Shown piece by piece: positions 5,395 through 56,849 of a DNA stretch of 64,000 nucleotides. Positions within the stretch are counted from its first letter, which is position 1. The number at the start of each line of letters is the position of its first letter. A program made the translations under genes and the position numbers. Under the pieces are notes generated by a model. The model did no database searches. It was not told where the DNA came from and saw nothing but the letters and a program-made list of their open reading frames with translations. This DNA comes from Sporosarcina ureilytica. GTDB lineage: Bacteria > Bacillota > Bacilli > Bacillales_A > Planococcaceae. Location: positions 186,001 through 250,000 of the forward strand of contig NZ_CP017560.1 of assembly GCF_001753205.1 (NCBI RefSeq), in the 5' to 3' direction.

Positions 5395-6831
5395 CTATTC
5401 TTCCACCTCATTCATTACGACAAGTATTTGTTTTTCTTTTGTTCGAATTGCCCCTTGGAAACTGGCTTCCATCGTGGTGAGTGTTATCAGTAATTCAACA
5501 TGTTCCTCTGTTATCCTTTCACCAGCTAATAATAATGGAATACCTGGTGGATAAGGTATAATCGATGCTGCTGCTATCATACCTACAGTCTGATTATACT
5601 GTACCCAATCAACTTGAAATTGTTCTAACTCGCTTCTATTGTAACAGAGTTCGGATATTTGATTGACAGTAATGGGCGGAGTACTAACATTCTTTTTCTC
5701 TTCATGGACATGTAGCCATTTAACGGCTCGCTCAATTTTATTACAAATCGTTTCAATATCGTATAATTGTCCTTTTTTTAATAAAGGAAGGATCAAAAGC
5801 ACTTGAAAAGGGTCCGCTAGTTCAACATAAATGCTTTCTTTCTCCAACGCTTTAAGCAATTGAAAACCAGTATAATTTTCAACTCTCCCCATTAACTTCA
5901 ATGGATCATTTGACTCAATGACTTGAAAGGATGCAATATGATTCAATCGATTGATAAATTTTTCTCTTCTATTTAAAAAGCTTGTTACATCTTTTCTCGT
6001 AAATGATTCTGCATAAGCCCTCGCATCGTCTAAGGACGCCATTAGAAGATAAGAAGGGCTACTCGATTGCAACATTTGTAAGTACTTTGATATACGTTCT
6101 TTTGACACTAAAGTAGATTTCACATGTAAAAAAGAAGCCATCGTCATTGCTGGTAACGTTTTATGTGCAGAATGAACAACGACATCAGCACCTAACGCCA
6201 AGGCTGATGTAGGAAATGGTTCCCCAATCACAAAATGAGCGCCATGCGCCTCATCTACGAGTACCGGTACATCTTGTTTATGACACATCGCAATAATTTC
6301 TTTTAAGTCTTCTCCAGTTGTCCCATAATAAGTAGGATAAGTTAATATGACAGCTTTCGCGTTAGGATATTGTTCTAATGCTAGTCGAACTTGTCTTGCT
6401 GAAACAGTACCGGCAGAAGCCGTTTCTTCATCCCAATCAGGTGCAATTAATACTGGCCTAGCATCAACTAATTCAAGTGCATTGAAAACAGATTTATGTG
6501 CATTTCGTTGGACAATCACTGTATCGCCAGCGCGACAAGTCGCATAAATCATCGCTAGATTACCTACTGTAGAGCCGTTAACTAAGAAAAAACTTGCATC
6601 CGTATTATATAATTCCATTAATTTATCCTGTGCGTCTGCAATGACATCCTCTGGTTGATGCAAATCATCAAGACCGCTTATCTCTGTAAAGTCAAATGAG
6701 AGCGCAGAACGTAATGCTGGTGGCAAACCGGATAATTCTCCATGCTTATGACCTGGTACGTGAAAAGAGACCGGTTTCTCCTGGTTAAACTCCTCCAACC
6801 TTTGGACAAGTGGACGATTGATATATTCCAT
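5395..6831 (-). CDS. yaaO: Orn/Lys/Arg decarboxylase family protein YaaO
   Basis: A 478-residue PLP-dependent group III decarboxylase. The N-terminal wing opens [13 protein letters not shown] and is followed by [10 protein letters not shown]. The PLP pocket reads VDEAHGAHF, and the Schiff-base lysine is in [12 protein letters not shown]. subtilis YaaO is 480 residues. The substrate (arginine, lysine or ornithine) cannot be read from sequence. In B. subtilis, csfB, xpaC and yaaN lie between the rrn cluster and yaaO; here yaaO directly follows 5S rRNA, and those genes are absent from the locus. Confidence 0.92.
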
Positions 6832-6974
6832 TTCTCTTCACTTCCTACTATTATATTTAAATGAAACAAGACCTATTCCCGAAGTAATGACGTCAAGACG
6901 TAAGACGTCAATCTCATAAATATGATCCTTACTTATCACTTCATTTAGCGAGTTATTATTAATTTCATATATAA

Positions 6975-16072: not shown

Positions 16073-16235
16073 CAAGCGAATTAAAATGACTCATTATTAA
16101 TCATTTAATGCAAAATTAATTACACTCCCATATCATGAGATATATTAGAACAAGAACACTTTTGGTAGGAAAACGAAACTTTTCAACAATCAATCCGTAG
16201 TAAAGATATAAAGTGTTTTACGCGAGGTGATATGA

Positions 16236-16409
16236 ATGTTGAACCGAGAACCTAAATGTTCGAGGTGCGGTATTGAAATTAAAGGAGATGACGTTGTACT
16301 CCTGAAAATGCGTTATCCAAAACGAAAAGGAATGGTTGAAATCAAAGCATATCTTAATAACGAAGGAGCGTTTCTATGTGAAAATTGTTTTCAACATGAG
16401 TCAAAGTAA
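16236..16409 (+). CDS. 57-residue CxxC...CxxC zinc-ribbon-like protein
   Basis: A short gene with a plausible ribosome-binding site (GAGGTG six bases before ATG 16236); a second ATG at 16232 hits a stop after seven codons. The product is basic, has CSRC near residue 8 and CENC near residue 48, and ends in FQHESK. Four cysteines at this spacing suggest one zinc site. I recall similar 56-57-residue Bacillales proteins carrying misleading 'Fe3+ hydroxamate' annotations; that name is not supported by the sequence. It is not the sigma-G inhibitor CsfB/Gin, which differs in sequence. It is transcribed head-on to replication. Confidence 0.7.
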   Translation: MLNREPKCSRCGIEIKGDDVVLLKMRYPKRKGMVEIKAYLNNEGAFLCENCFQHESK

Positions 16410-16495
16410 GGGCGACAGAATGCATCCTTTGTACTTTTATTCAAACCACTAATTTACTCTAACTAATGTTTCTTAAAAATCTTTCTTGAAAACTG

Positions 16496-16524
16496 TTGAC
16501 ATTATGTTTTATTCATGGTAAATT
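16496..16524 (+). promoter_or_regulatory. Promoter of tRNA-Ser
   Basis: TTGACA (16496-16501), a 17-bp spacer and TAAATT (16519-16524), ending 14 bases before the mature tRNA 5' end. Confidence 0.75.
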
Positions 16525-16538
16525 ATTAATTGTCTTAC

Positions 16539-16631
16539 GGAGGAATACCCAAGCCCGGCTGAAGGGATCGGTCTTGAAAACCGACAGGGGTGTTAAAGCC
16601 CGCGGGGGTTCGAATCCCTCTTCCTCCGCCA
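16539..16631 (+). tRNA. tRNA-Ser (anticodon TGA)
   Basis: A class II tRNA with acceptor GGAGGAA pairing with TTCCTCC, discriminator G and an encoded CCA (16629-16631). The anticodon loop is CTTGAAA (TGA), the variable arm is long, and the T-loop reads GTTCGAATC. It decodes UCN serine codons. It has its own promoter and terminator and stands alone on the plus strand. Confidence 0.96.
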
Positions 16632-16664
16632 TAATTTTAAATTAGCGCATAAATTTAGAGATTG

Positions 16665-16692
16665 AATTCGTTACACGGTAACGAATTTTTCT
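16665..16692 (+). terminator. Terminator of tRNA-Ser
   Basis: AATTCGTTAC-acg-GTAACGAATT is a perfect ten-pair stem followed by TTTC. Confidence 0.8.
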
Positions 16693-16715
16693 TAACAAAT
16701 AATAATCTGAAAATA

Positions 16716-16742
16716 AAAACACTCCTAGCGAGTGTTTTTTTG
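16716..16742. terminator. Second hairpin terminator after tRNA-Ser
   Basis: AAAACACTC-ctagc-GAGTGTTTT with a T run on the plus strand and A residues on the other side, so it could work in both directions. Confidence 0.7.
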
Positions 16743-16786
16743 TTTTCAGAAATCCCCCTCAATCATTCTGCTTTCAATCAATAAAC

Positions 16787-16824
16787 AAAAGCTACCCCGT
16801 AATGTAATGATCGTGGTAGCTTTT
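16787..16824 (-). terminator. Terminator after thrB
   Basis: AAAAGCTACC at 16787 pairs with GGTAGCTTTT at 16815. It lies directly beyond the thrB stop and ends the hom-thrC-thrB transcript. Confidence 0.75.
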
Positions 16825-16829
16825 ACTAG

Positions 16830-17744
16830 TTAAATCATCATATTTTGTTTTTGAACATTCGCTCCTACTTTTGACGAACGGACAGAAAAGCTATCGTAAT
16901 ATGGGAAGTTTGAAGTTAATTTTTCTACAACCTCTTCTTCCGTTCCCTCCTCAACTGCCACAATTAAAGAAGGACCAGCCCCACTAATCGTCATTCCATA
17001 AGCGCCTAACCCTTTGCATAGCGTTCGAATTTCATCAAAGTGCGGGAACAATGTTTTACGATAAGGTTCATGAAGATGATCTTTCTCCATCATTTTCCCG
17101 ACTGTTTTCCAGTCATTTTGTGCTAGTGCTGCCGTTAAGACGGCGCTCGCAGAACTGCTGCGAACTGCCTTTTCATGCGACAATTCATTCGGCAATAGCC
17201 CTCTCGCTTCTGATGTTTTAAACTCTTTTGGCGGAACGAGAACTACAAATGTTGCATCTACTTGTTCCACGTGAATATAGTCAATCTCGTCAGCTTCAAA
17301 ATAAGCGATTACAGCCCCACCAAGTAAAGCCGCACTAACATTATCTGCATGTCCCTCTAGTTCGCTGCCGAGTAAAACTTTGTCTCTGTCCGTCAGCCCA
17401 AGTTCTAATAGATGGTCAGCAATTACAATTCCAACTGCGATTGCGGAAGCACTGCTCCCAAATCCTTTTCCTAATGGGATGTCAGACTTCACTTGAAGCT
17501 TTAATGGCGCAACTTCCTTACGATACCTTTTGGCAACTTCAATAATCGTTTGAACGATTAAATTTCGCTCATCTGCCACCAACCCTTGAAAAGCTTCCTC
17601 TTCATAAATCACTGTCCATTCACCGTGAGCCGCTACTTCCACGGACATATACAGATCTAAAGCAAGGCCTACACTATCAAATCCAGGACCTAAATTTGCG
17701 GTAGTGGCCGGTACGATGACTGAAAATCCTGGATTTGACATCAT
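16830..17744 (-). CDS. thrB: Homoserine kinase
   Basis: A 304-residue GHMP-family kinase that phosphorylates homoserine for threonine synthesis. Motif 1 is [19 protein letters not shown] near residues 10-28, the ATP-binding glycine-rich loop is [12 protein letters not shown] near residues 90-101, and motif 3 is [14 protein letters not shown] near residues 252-265. Its ATG overlaps the thrC stop (ATGA), so the two are translationally coupled. A second Met follows at residue 2, leaving the exact start ambiguous by one codon. Confidence 0.97.
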
Positions 17745-18799
17745 TGAACCCCTGCCTTTAGTTCATTGAGCAGTTCTTTAAACTCCTCCTGTGATAACAA
17801 TGCCTTATCTTCGTTGACCTCTATTGCAGTATCAGGATCTTTCAAACCATTTCCAGTAAGCACCGCGACAACTGTTGTGCCTTTTTCAAGCACACCAGCA
17901 TCCACTTGTTTTTTCACGCCTGCGATAGATGCACATGAACCTGGCTCAGCGAAAACACCTTCCTGCGAAGCAATTAATTGATAAGCTTCTAAAATTTCTT
18001 CATCTGTCGCAGACAAAATGTTTCCTTTTGATTCTTCAAGGGCACATTTCGCTAATTCCCAACTTGCAGGGTTTCCAATACGGATTGCCGTCGCTACAGT
18101 TTCAGGCTCTTCAAACACGCGATTATAAACGATAGGTGCTGCTCCATCTGCTTGTACACCTAATAACTTTGGTAATTCAGTCCCTTTATTATCCGCATAT
18201 TCTTTAAACCCCTTCCAAGCGGCCGAAATATTTCCGGCATTCCCGACTGGCAGTGCAAATACATCAGGAACCTTTCCAAGCTGATCAATCGTTTCAAACG
18301 CAATTGTTTTTTGTCCTTCTAAACGGTACGGATTCACTGAATTCACGAGCGCAACTTCCCCTTCTCCAGCTTCACGTACCATTCTGAGTGCTTCGTCAAA
18401 ATTACCTTCAATCTCAACGATTTCCGCACCATACATTTTTGCTTGCGCCATTTTTCCAAGCGCAATTCTTCCCTCCGGAATAACGACAATTGTACGCATG
18501 CCCGCTCTAGCACCATATGCCGCTGCAGACGCAGACGTATTTCCTGTTGACGCACAAATTAAAGTCGTTTTCCCTTCCTCTTTTGCTTTCGCTACTGCCA
18601 TAACCATACCGCGATCTTTAAAAGAACCTGTTGGATTAACCCCCTCTACTTTCACATAGAGATTAATGCCCCACTGTTCAGATAGACGAGACAAATGGAT
18701 AAGCGGTGTATTTCCCTCATGTAAAGTGAGCATTGGTGTATTTTTCGTAATTGGTAACCACTCTTTATATTGTTCTAATAATCCATTCCATCTCATCAT
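17741..18799 (-). CDS. thrC: Threonine synthase
   Basis: A 352-residue PLP enzyme of the beta-replacing fold type II family, converting O-phosphohomoserine to threonine. The PLP lysine lies in [10 protein letters not shown] near residue 60, with the phosphate-binding glycine loop further on (GNAGNISA near residue 187). It overlaps hom and thrB by four bases at each end (ATGA junctions), so hom-thrC-thrB is a single operon, as in B. subtilis. A second Met at residue 2 may be the start. Confidence 0.97.
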
Positions 18800-47462: not shown

Positions 47463-47635
47463 TTCATACCCTCGCTTATATATTTATATTAATTAATTAA
47501 AAGATAGTAATAATAGTAATAGGGCCTGTGGATTTGTGGATAAGTGACTTTACTGCACTGCCACAAGGTTTTCAACATGTGTACAACATGTTCATGATTG
47601 TGCATGGGTTATCCTATGTTACTCACAAGTTATGA
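47463..47635. other. oriC: oriC, dnaA-dnaN part: DnaA boxes, GC cluster, DnaA-trios and AT-rich unwinding region
   Basis: Plus strand from left to right: an AT-only tract (about 47478-47502), DnaA-trios TAG-TAA-TAA-TAG-TAA-TAG (47505-47522), a GGCC cluster (47523-47526), a near-box TGTGGATTT (47527-47535) and a perfect DnaA box TGTGGATAA (47535-47543). This is the arrangement described for the B. subtilis basal unwinding system. Weaker boxes: TTATCCTAT (47609) and TTACTCACA (47619). Confidence 0.88.
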
Positions 47636-48985
47636 TTATTCTCTACCAAGCGTATTTTTGATTTCTTTTATATCTTGTTGCAAAGCTTGGTCATCTTTTA
47701 ACATCGTCGAGATTTTCTCATGTGCATGAATAACCGTTGAATGATCTCGACCTCCAAATTCTGAACCAATTTTAGGCAAAGAATTATCCGTTAACTCTCT
47801 TGATAGATACATGGCAACTTGTCTTGGAAAGGCAATTGCACGTGTTCTTTTTTTAGCCGAAAAATCTTCAAGGCGTATGTTGAAGTGTTTTCCAACTGTT
47901 TTTTGAATATCAAGGATGGTAACGGTTCTTGGTCTTGTATTTGGAATAATATCTTTTAATGCTTCACCAGCAAGTTCTACTGTAATATCACTATTCACTA
48001 ATGAAGAATAGGCAACTACTCTGATTAGAGCTCCTTCAAGTTCACGAATATTCGTATCAATTTCATTAGCGATATGCATCATCACTTCGTTTGGAATATC
48101 GATAAGCCCATCAGCTTTCGCCTTTTTACGTAATATCGCGATTCTTGTTTCTAAATCAGGCGGTGTAATATCCGTAATAAGTCCCCATTCAAAGCGTGAT
48201 CTAAGTCGATCTTCTAATGTTGGAATTTCTTTTGGTGGCCTGTCACTTGAAATGACAATTTGCTTTGATTCTTCATGAAGTGTGTTAAACGTATGGAAAA
48301 ATTCTTCTTGTGTTTGTTCTTTTCCTGCAAGAAATTGAATATCATCTATGAGAAGCACATCAACATTTCGATATTTGTTGCGAAATTCGACGGCTTTATT
48401 GTCTCGAATTGAATTAATGAATTCATTTGTAAACTTTTCAGATGTTAAATAAACAACCTTGGCGTTCGGATTATCTTCCAATACATAATGGCCAATGGCA
48501 TGCATTAAGTGAGTTTTCCCCAGCCCAACGCCTCCGTAAATAAAAAGAGGGTTATAAGCTTTCGCTGGTGCTTCTGCAACGGCTAGTGATGCTGCATGGG
48601 CAAAACGATTGCCAGACCCAATCACAAAAGTGTCAAATGTATACTTTGAATTAAGCATTCCCGCAATTGAATGAGAAGGGGGAGTTTCAGCAGGTGGTTC
48701 AACTGGTTTAGGCATCATAAAGTCCTTTTCTTCCATATCTTCGGGTACAACGAAATGGATAAATCGATCTTCCCCTGTAATTTCAGACAGAATACCAGTG
48801 ATTAAGTGAATATAATTACTTTCCAACCAGTCTTTTGAAAATGTATTTGGGACAGCTATCGTGACATTCTCTTCTTCGTAAGAAATTAATTTTGTCGATT
48901 TTAGCCAGGTTTCAAAACTCGGTCTTGAAATTCGTTCTTCAATTTTCGACAAGACTTCATCCCATAATTTTTCTAGGTGATCCAC
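47636..48985 (-). CDS. dnaA: Chromosomal replication initiator DnaA
   Basis: A 449-residue initiator. Domain I (about residues 1-80), a proline-rich linker, then the AAA+ domain with Walker [16 protein letters not shown] and Walker [11 protein letters not shown], and domain IV with the box-binding signature [15 protein letters not shown]. The start is GTG 48985 ([12 protein letters not shown]), seven bases after AAAGGAGG; the ATG at 49036 lies near the promoter and is rejected. B. subtilis DnaA has 446 residues. Flanked by DnaA boxes on both sides. Confidence 0.98.
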
Positions 48986-49996: not shown

Positions 49997-50347
49997 ATGA
50001 ATAAACGCCAACGAATAAAAAAGAATAGTGAATTTCAGAAAGTATTTAAAGACGGAAAATCGTTTGCGAACCGTCAATTTATTGTCTACCGCTATTATAA
50101 AGAAGGGCAATCTGAATTTAGATTAGGCCTGTCTGTAAGTAAGAAAGTTGGAAATGCGGTCACAAGAAATCGAATTAAACGTTATATAAGACAATCTTTT
50201 CTTGAACTAAAAGATGAACTGAAAAATGATATAGATTATGTGATTATTGCTAGAAACCAAGCAGCGACAATGGATTTTCATGAAACCAAAAAAAGTTTAC
50301 AACATGTTCTGCGTATTGCACGTGTATTAAAGAAAAGACAGCAGTAG
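49997..50347 (+). CDS. rnpA: Ribonuclease P protein component
   Basis: A 116-residue basic protein that assists RNase P RNA in tRNA 5' maturation. The RNR signature is [12 protein letters not shown] near residues 53-64, and the N-terminus opens [20 protein letters not shown]. The start ATG 49997 follows AGGTGAG at eight bases. It is 262 bp after rpmH, a longer gap than in many Bacillales; I see no feature in 49764-49996. Confidence 0.97.
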
Positions 50348-50396
50348 CGAAGCACATTTTTAAATGATAAACTTTATTTAACTAATAGTTACTTGA

Positions 50397-50510
50397 GTCA
50401 ATTTCATAATTACCTAAAACCGCTAAGCTGATACAATATATAGTTGAGAACGGTTTAACTCAACTATATATTGTATCGGCGCAGCGAAAAGATTGGATTA
50501 TGAAATTGAC
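50397..50510. repeat. Inverted-repeat element, copy 1 (114 bp)
   Basis: Perfect 14-bp terminal inverted repeats: GTCAATTTCATAAT (50397-50410) and ATTATGAAATTGAC (50497-50510). Inside is a perfect 19-bp stem (50430-50448 with 50459-50477) around a ten-base loop AACGGTTTAA. It lies between rnpA and spoIIIJ. Internal sequence TACCTAAAACCGCTAAG is shared with copy 2 at 56716-56787. There is no coding capacity. Confidence 0.85.
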
Positions 50511-50549
50511 TAACTTTGATTTAAATAGAAAAGATATGGGGGAGCGAAT

Positions 50550-51329
50550 TTGAAAAAGAGGTTAGGACTAATCCTTATGTTCTCTGCCGTGGCCTTATTA
50601 TTGGCAGGTTGTACAGAATTTAATGAACCAATCTATGAAGATAGTGAAGGATTTTGGAATAAGTATATCGTTTGGCCATTAGTATCACTCATCACTTTAT
50701 TTAAAGAATTACTCGGTACATATGGGTATGGAATTGTTGCGGTAACAATTATTATTCGCCTAATTTTATTACCGCTGATGATTAAACAAACAAAAAGCTC
50801 AAAGGAAATGCAAGAAGTCCAGCCGGAGTTAAACGCATTAAAAGAAAAATACAAATCTAAAGATGCAGTGACACAAGAAAAGTATCGTACTGAAATGCAG
50901 AAACTCATGACTGAAAAGAAAATTAATCCAGCAGCAGGTTGTTTACCGGTATTGGTTCAAATGCCGATTTTGATCGGTTTTTATCACGCAATTAGCCGAA
51001 TGAATAGTACGCCTGAAATCGAACTTGGGACTTTCCTTTGGTTTCAGTTGGCTGAGCGAAGCATTACGCTCGCAGTGATAGCTGGAATCATGCAATTCGT
51101 TGTTCTTCGTACTGGACCAGCAATGGGGAACCCACAGATGAGAATGATGATGTATGTGATGCCGGTTTTCATTATCGTCATCGGAACAATATTACCAGCG
51201 GCATTGTCACTTTACTGGGTAATCGGTAATATCATTTCTATTATTCAAAACTTTTTCATTTACAAGCCATTCAAAAAAGAAGAAGAACTTGTAGAACAAC
51301 CTGCAAAAGTAGGAGGGAAAAGAAAATGA
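50550..51329 (+). CDS. spoIIIJ: Membrane protein insertase YidC/SpoIIIJ (MisCA)
   Basis: A 259-residue YidC1-type lipoprotein insertase. A signal peptide with lipobox LLLAGC places the lipidated Cys near residue 21; about five membrane segments follow, and the groove arginine is in TIIIRLILLP near residue 73. A lysine-rich C-terminal tail follows. The start is TTG 50550, after GGGGGAG. It inserts membrane proteins alone or with SecYEG; in B. subtilis SpoIIIJ is also needed for sigma-G activation. It overlaps jag by four bases. Confidence 0.95.
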   Translation: MKKRLGLILMFSAVALLLAGCTEFNEPIYEDSEGFWNKYIVWPLVSLITLFKELLGTYGYGIVAVTIIIRLILLPLMIKQTKSSKEMQEVQPELNALKEKYKSKDAVTQEKYRTEMQKLMTEKKINPAAGCLPVLVQMPILIGFYHAISRMNSTPEIELGTFLWFQLAERSITLAVIAGIMQFVVLRTGPAMGNPQMRMMMYVMPVFIIVIGTILPAALSLYWVIGNIISIIQNFFIYKPFKKEEELVEQPAKVGGKRK

Positions 51330-56553: not shown

Positions 56554-56715
56554 TTACTTTTAGCGATATTGATTACAATAATTGTATTGAAATAATTAGT
56601 TGCATCGATTTCATGAGAGTTTGTTTTAATAAATAGGGTACATGTTATGGACTGATAATAACAGTCTTTTTATATAAAAGTATTTAAGGTTGAAGAGTGA
56701 AAGAACTTACTTGAG

Positions 56716-56787
56716 TCAATTTCATAATTACCTAAAACCGCTAAGTTGAGACAATAGCAGCGAATAGATTGGATTATGAAATTGACT
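56716..56787. repeat. Inverted-repeat element, copy 2 (72 bp)
   Basis: The same perfect 14-bp ends as 50397-50510 (GTCAATTTCATAAT at 56716-56729, ATTATGAAATTGAC at 56774-56787). The internal TACCTAAAACCGCTAAG and GCAGCGAA-AGATTGG are shared, but the 19-bp inner hairpin of copy 1 is absent. It lies in the leader of noc, ending 62 bp before its start. Confidence 0.85.
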
Positions 56788-56849
56788 TACTTTATAAAGT
56801 ATCGAACTAATTGGAGCTAGGGAGTAGTTTTGAAAAGGTGGTGCCGGAA

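Follow-up and report, generated by a model that had tools for sequence, protein, structure and literature searches.

An inverted-repeat element between rnpA and spoIIIJ

The window (the whole stretch of 64,000 nucleotides of the Sporosarcina ureilytica genome analysed here) holds, between the genes rnpA and spoIIIJ/yidC, a short element with inverted ends, which is read below as a miniature inverted-repeat element (MITE). This element (copy 1) is accompanied by a second, shorter one (copy 2), which sits between rsmG and noc. The features of both are collected in Table 1.

An inverted-repeat search of positions 50300-50620 revealed two inverted repeats in total. The outer one consists of 15-bp arms (50396-50410 and 50497-50511) that are 100% identical, and the inner one of 28-nt arms, 89% identical, enclosing a 10-nt loop. 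The initial annotation had described perfect inverted ends of 14 bp, one base short of those found here, and a 19-bp perfect stem with a ten-base loop, which is contained in the 28-nt arms. Since the borders of copy 1 are set by the target duplications, the element measures 118 bp, and the span first proposed (50397-50510) captured the right element with borders placed 2 bp too far inside on each side. At the full length, the terminal inverted repeats comprise 16 bp, and their sole mismatch is the outermost base (G on the left versus T on the right, read inward).

Table 1. Positions in the window of the two element copies and of the genes around copy 1
Feature	Position	Strand	Basis or remark
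rnpA, upstream of copy 1	49997..50347	+	TIGR00188, E = 3.3e-30, above cut-off
Left target-site duplication of copy 1, ACTT	50391..50394	.	sequence, copy census
Predicted MITE copy 1, 118-bp form	50395..50512	+	0/118 changes versus the consensus of ten 118-bp copies
Left terminal inverted repeat, 16 bp, GAGTCAATTTCATAAT	50395..50410	+	
Inner hairpin, left arm	50421..50448	+	inverted-repeat search, fold
Inner hairpin, right arm	50459..50486	+	inverted-repeat search, fold
Right terminal inverted repeat, 16 bp, TAGTCAATTTCATAAT on the - strand (read inward)	50497..50512	-	
Right target-site duplication of copy 1, ACTT	50513..50516	.	
spoIIIJ/yidC, downstream of copy 1	50550..51329	+	best model PRK02944 (SpoIIIJ), E = 2.6e-90, below its cut-off; TIGR03592 (YidC) above cut-off
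Left target-site duplication of copy 2, ACTT	56709..56712	.	
Predicted MITE copy 2, 76 bp, inner hairpin mostly gone	56713..56788	+	
Right target-site duplication of copy 2, ACTT	56789..56792	.	

The ten copies whose consensus copy 1 matches comprise seven from the host genome and three from the sister genome G019. The initial annotation stated that there is no reading frame; in the ORF listing, no ORF of at least 80 aa overlaps copy 1, and 118 bp could hold at most 39 codons. As a single strand it is predicted to form one long nested hairpin, with an RNA folding energy of -57.8 kcal/mol compared to -16.85 ± 3.31 in 200 shuffles (z = -12.4).

Copies in the host genome and their target duplications

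The initial annotation counted two copies in the window, which is correct, and regarded as contrary to a mobile element the case that only these two exist and that both are fixed at orthologous places in distant relatives. It also proposed to look for the ends genome-wide, for target duplications, for empty sites and for a transposase with the same ends. In the host genome (3,436,578 bases in one contig), the 14-mer end yielded 44 exact matches, compared to 0 for the reversed control, and 27 copies of 39-319 bp could be bounded, far from the two-copy case. Eight of them measure 144 bp, seven 118 bp and two 66 bp, and the lengths of 39, 76, 104, 105, 116, 137, 139, 140, 265 and 319 bp are represented by one copy each. 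The census left out a degenerate composite at about 169967-170216, an exact 14-mer at 724009 that apparently lies within a gene, and eight unpartnered end-like sites that differ from the end by no more than one mismatch.

Target duplications are also evident. An exact 4-bp duplication was found at 22 of the 27 copies, compared to the 1.69 expected by re-pairing the flanks of different copies, and is missing from the other five. Control duplication lengths of 2, 3 and 5-9 bp gave 0 or 1 exact cases among the same copies, and exact 4-bp duplications drop to three at most when the borders are shifted. According to a crude ORF call, 24/27 copies lie outside predicted ORFs of at least 70 aa.

Two unmatched end-like sites (3241171 and 3250711) were considered as the ends of a large carrier of 9.5 kb; this candidate was rejected, as the flanks differ (AATT versus ACGA) and no obvious transposase was seen by eye among the ORFs. 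Hybrid promoters formed from the outward TTGACT at the element ends were likewise set aside, their -10 matches being 1-5 out of 6 by raw count.

Empty sites and distribution among relatives

In G019, the sequence flanking copy 1 aligns on either side, 120 query bases are missing in between and nothing extra is present; the site is read as a pre-insertion state, with one ATTT where the host has ACTT. Copy 2 is also absent from G019 (query 6808-6898), where the flank shows, by eye, additional minor differences. In the case of another 20 host copies, the flanks were joined minus one duplication and searched against G019; these 20, the two window copies and five copies common to both genomes (whose 60-base flanks align at 48/53 to 60/60) make up the 27. 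Alignments run through the junction at 16 of the 20 sites, which are empty in G019. As judged by eye, 11 of these 16 junctions carry the 4-mer once, and the exact 4-mer is absent at the remaining five (1256558, 1367444, 1956111, 2442780 and 40220). The G019 site for 2732749 exhibits a 4-base difference beside the junction. The four sites with no through-alignment are 1689665, 2848828 and 2882392, which gave no match, and 47623, which matched by its left flank only.

An end-like 15-mer (with up to 3 mismatches) was found at the end of rnpA in none of 20 other genus genomes (stretches of 720-771 bases). Fixation at orthologous places is therefore not what is observed, with G019 empty at both window copies and 0/20 relatives holding the element between rnpA and spoIIIJ. 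At E ≤ 1e-3, BLAST matched the element in 14/68 genus genomes, in several of them at one end only, and many matches occur in G000, G019 and G050. In a family sample of 250 genomes, with few candidates scored in each, nine match, in 3/19 genera, and the matches outside the genus span 21-23 bases only. Plasmid and phage collections contain no similar element at E ≤ 0.01, and an exact 27-base pattern retrieved nothing from a genome-contig collection in which the host's own and near records may be absent.

Insertion sequences with near-identical ends

A transposase with nearly the same ends does occur in the genus: insertion sequences (ISs) of about 1.55-1.57 kb there encode a transposase of probable IS1182 type, have 16-bp ends almost identical to those of the MITE and show 4-bp duplications. 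When the genus was searched by pattern, G022 yielded three end pairs exactly 1574 bp apart, with the ends GAGTTAATTTCATAATT, and these 1574-bp elements are ISs with 4-bp duplications and a transposase of 452 aa. This protein matches PF01609, PF13751 and PF05598 above cut-off, and its best NCBIfam model is NF033551 (IS1182), with E = 4.1e-75 and 253.5 bits, below the 270-bit cut-off. A relative 58.7% identical is annotated as an IS1182 family transposase. An IS with such ends and an AACT duplication, on the Sporosarcina psychrophila plasmid NZ_CP146247.1, carries this annotation. Relatives of the transposase at E ≤ 1e-30 are present in 15/68 genus genomes.

Among 26 ISs, drawn from the genus and from named Sporosarcina, Planococcus, Priestia, Alkalihalophilus, Enterococcus and Paenibacillus records, an exact 4-bp duplication was observed in 20, of which 14 are from G022. 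These ISs were chosen for having both ends within 4 mismatches, so that the likeness of their ends is partly due to selection, and loci L144-L152 and L154 (truncated, broken or doubled) were left out. When no hand selection was applied, an end pair was found at 32/40 transposase loci and an exact duplication at 20 of these 32, a count that covers the 30 loci of the genus search plus L188-L196 and L123, including broken, weak and double-counted ones.

In the best MITE/IS end pairs, the two 15-base inner ends together contain 2-5 mismatches, and no sampled IS equals the MITE end at all 16 positions. In one IS, from Paenibacillus, the outermost bases differ as G/T, as they do in the MITE. Next to the 16-bp ends, MITE and IS match at 2-8 of 17 bases, which is about chance. 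The MITE is therefore no simple deletion derivative of a sampled IS. No IS1182 transposase was detected in the host or in G019 at E ≤ 1e-30, nor at E ≤ 1e-3 in a second search; therefore, the family looks orphaned in the host, and mobilisation in trans is not visible within the same cell.

Two candidates from G046 were rejected: the IS1182 match L189 as a partner, whose ends differ, and four single end sites as possible ISs, which have no partner under the exact pattern. In G050, contig C126 (L142 and L245) holds a 119-bp MITE of a second subfamily about 100 bp from an IS1182-type IS. On the plasmid-sized contig C2 of G022, a long open frame near 16100-18300 (L123) includes, in frame, a truncated IS1182-type transposase; the remainder resembles an annotated S-layer homology domain protein of an S. 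psychrophila plasmid.

Identity and proposed mobilisation

Copy 1 exhibits the features by which MITEs are recognised: it is short and gene-less, it holds terminal inverted repeats flanked by duplications of fixed length, it is present in many copies, and its insertions are polymorphic. Both its ends and the length of the duplication agree with IS1182 elements. With a probability of roughly 95%, copy 1 is an IS1182-type MITE, a non-autonomous mobile element and one of about 27 copies in the host. A non-autonomous mobile element was one of the two readings initially offered, and it is supported by the 27 copies, the 4-bp duplications, the empty sites in G019 and the genus ISs with near-identical ends. 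As judged from sequence comparison, putative autonomous partners are present in the genus, and none was detected in the host.

In the proposed mechanism, an IS1182-type transposase acting in trans would recognise the 16-bp ends, mobilise the element and insert it, with a 4-bp stagger, at AT-rich targets that are mostly intergenic. The source IS, of which none was detected, may since have been lost from the host genome. The family is very likely orphaned there, and its copies would stay so unless a transposase re-enters. The inner palindrome would be an internal feature, gone from the shorter copies and once the target of a nested insertion.

ISPse1, an IS1182 element captured in Paracoccus by trap plasmids, appears in PMC3281130 with entries of 16/16 and 4, which can be read as repeat length and duplication; the mobile insertion cassettes (MICs) of Bacillus cereus are named in the same source. 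Kamoun et al. 2013 (PMC3852290) state that prokaryotic MITEs share with their partner IS only the borders, generally under 20 nt. As described there, such MITEs resemble the present family in being short, gene-less, often present in more than 10 copies and alike to the IS at the borders only, whereas here a collapsed 22-bp nested copy is carried along and no partner IS was detected in the host. Compared to IS1182 family ISs, the MITE shows the same 16-bp ends, differing by a few bases, and the same 4-bp duplication, but it lacks a transposase gene, and beside those ends its similarity to the ISs does not exceed chance. MICs are non-autonomous elements of Bacilli moved by an IS, and they belong to IS231 (IS4 family). 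By this description, the MITE would likewise be an IS-moved, non-autonomous element of Bacilli.

The element is ordinary in kind, its notable parts being the nested and collapsed forms, the co-varying arms and an unusually readable history of copies within copies. Its analysis settles the nature of a hairpin that annotators could mistake for an operon leader RNA. It also adds a MITE family that combines ends of IS1182 type with target duplications and empty sites, and it illustrates the nesting of such elements, their collapse to a few tens of bases and their spread. No earlier report of the family, and no occurrence of its end sequence, was found in the open-access papers searched, most subscription papers being outside this scope; the main text of a Sporosarcina genomics paper (PMC5930826) contains 0 occurrences of IS1182 or MITE.

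The inner hairpin and alternative readings

The inner hairpin was studied by aligning 28 copies, 116-120 bp long and taken from four genomes; L232 (no end pair) and all copies outside this length range were left out. In this alignment, 88.0% of the arm cells stay paired, and a change on both sides is observed in 11 of the 26 hairpin pairs. It is possible, although the odds are clearly against it, that the palindrome is actively maintained, its arms changing in step between subfamilies and even inside individual recent copies, whether through a role for the element or the host or through template switching from arm to arm. If so, the MITE family would be a natural record of that process.

A more specific proposal is that the MITE spread is real but the inner palindrome is selected for a function in the host or the element (an RNA end, a protein site or a cruciform), the copies being kept and not merely tolerated; we consider it improbable. 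Double-changed arm cells amount to 69, whereas shuffles gave 27.1 ± 5.8 and slid partners no more than 27. The shuffles, however, take no account of how the copies are related, and two subfamilies, which the larger double changes follow, dominate the alignment, so that independent events may be few. Moreover, two other measures of covariation are ordinary, as the number of pairs with a double change was reached by 44/500 shuffles and that of further pair types by 234/500. In host copy 1122825, three arm pairs are changed on both sides, the left arm having four changes in all and the right arm three; simulation gives a P of about 0.0014, for a copy picked after looking. However, pair 37/83 is lost in 16/28 rows and pair 48/72 in 11/28, and copies of 66 and 76 bp persist with no hairpin. 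Of the copies between co-directional genes, 13/18 are in sense orientation, a weak tendency in too few copies to conclude. Quasi-palindrome correction, the copying of one arm to the other during replication, would give matched changes without selection.

The other reading initially offered was a structured RNA, such as an attenuator, in the rnpA-spoIIIJ leader, conserved for operon regulation. This would be consistent with the very stable fold, with the position of copy 1 between co-directional genes, with the co-variation of the arms between subfamilies and with a promoter-like site inside the hairpin (50444-50472, + strand, 10/12 matches; three such sites in the region compared to 1.2 ± 1.1 in shuffles). 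As a conserved feature, however, it finds no support: the end-like sequence is missing from the locus in all 20 relatives, the site is empty in G019, 26 other bounded copies lie elsewhere in the genome, the locus has no Rfam match at the gathering threshold, and no terminator-like site was found in the region. A conserved leader RNA is therefore very unlikely. Less likely still is a REP/PATE-type element moved as a single-stranded DNA hairpin by an IS200/IS605-like (Y1) transposase, which would suit the strong inner hairpin and the 24/27 copies outside predicted ORFs but is contradicted by the terminal inverted repeats and the 4-bp duplications, neither of which is known from that class.

Nested, probably collapsed and related forms

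Within the IS1182-type MITE family, the 144-bp copies consist of the 118-bp form plus 26 bp in the right hairpin arm. This addition is made of GAGGCAATTTCATAATTGCCCA (22 bp) and a 4-bp repeat, AACA on the left and AACT on the right, and GAGGCAATTTCATAATTGCCCA, which varies slightly from copy to copy, corresponds to two ends of the element placed almost tip to tip. The 22-bp sequence is present in the eight copies of 144 bp and in three of 137-140 bp. At an equivalent position, locus L137 of G019 holds a nested 53-bp element with AACT on both sides, and the subtraction of 53 + 4 bp leaves exactly 118. The simplest reading of these sequences is that the 22-bp scar would be a nested insertion that later collapsed and was carried along as the outer element spread to new sites. 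As the G018 and G050 copies examined carry no scar, the 118-bp form appears to be the older one. The host site of L137 holds a 39-bp tip-to-tip remnant with flanks 52/58 and 52/56 identical; either the element collapsed in place in the host lineage or it grew in the other lineage, and we favour collapse.

Larger host elements with similar ends were observed at 368536-368800 (L006), 47623-47941 (L085) and about 169967-170216 (L086), two of the three with exact 4-bp duplications; for the one at 368536, the G019 site is empty and aligns with 98% identity. Similar larger elements occur in G046, G002, G022 and G037 (loci L126-L131). They carry a GC-rich repeat, in forms of GTTGATTGGAG...GGCGACTCC, for which there was no Rfam match at the gathering threshold and nothing relevant in a literature word search. 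Locus L136 of G036 shows similar ends and a different interior. Finally, the copies at 2065797, 2166729 and 3018064 of G019 (L239-L241) represent the second, 119-bp subfamily, which has a different hairpin sequence and is also present in G050.
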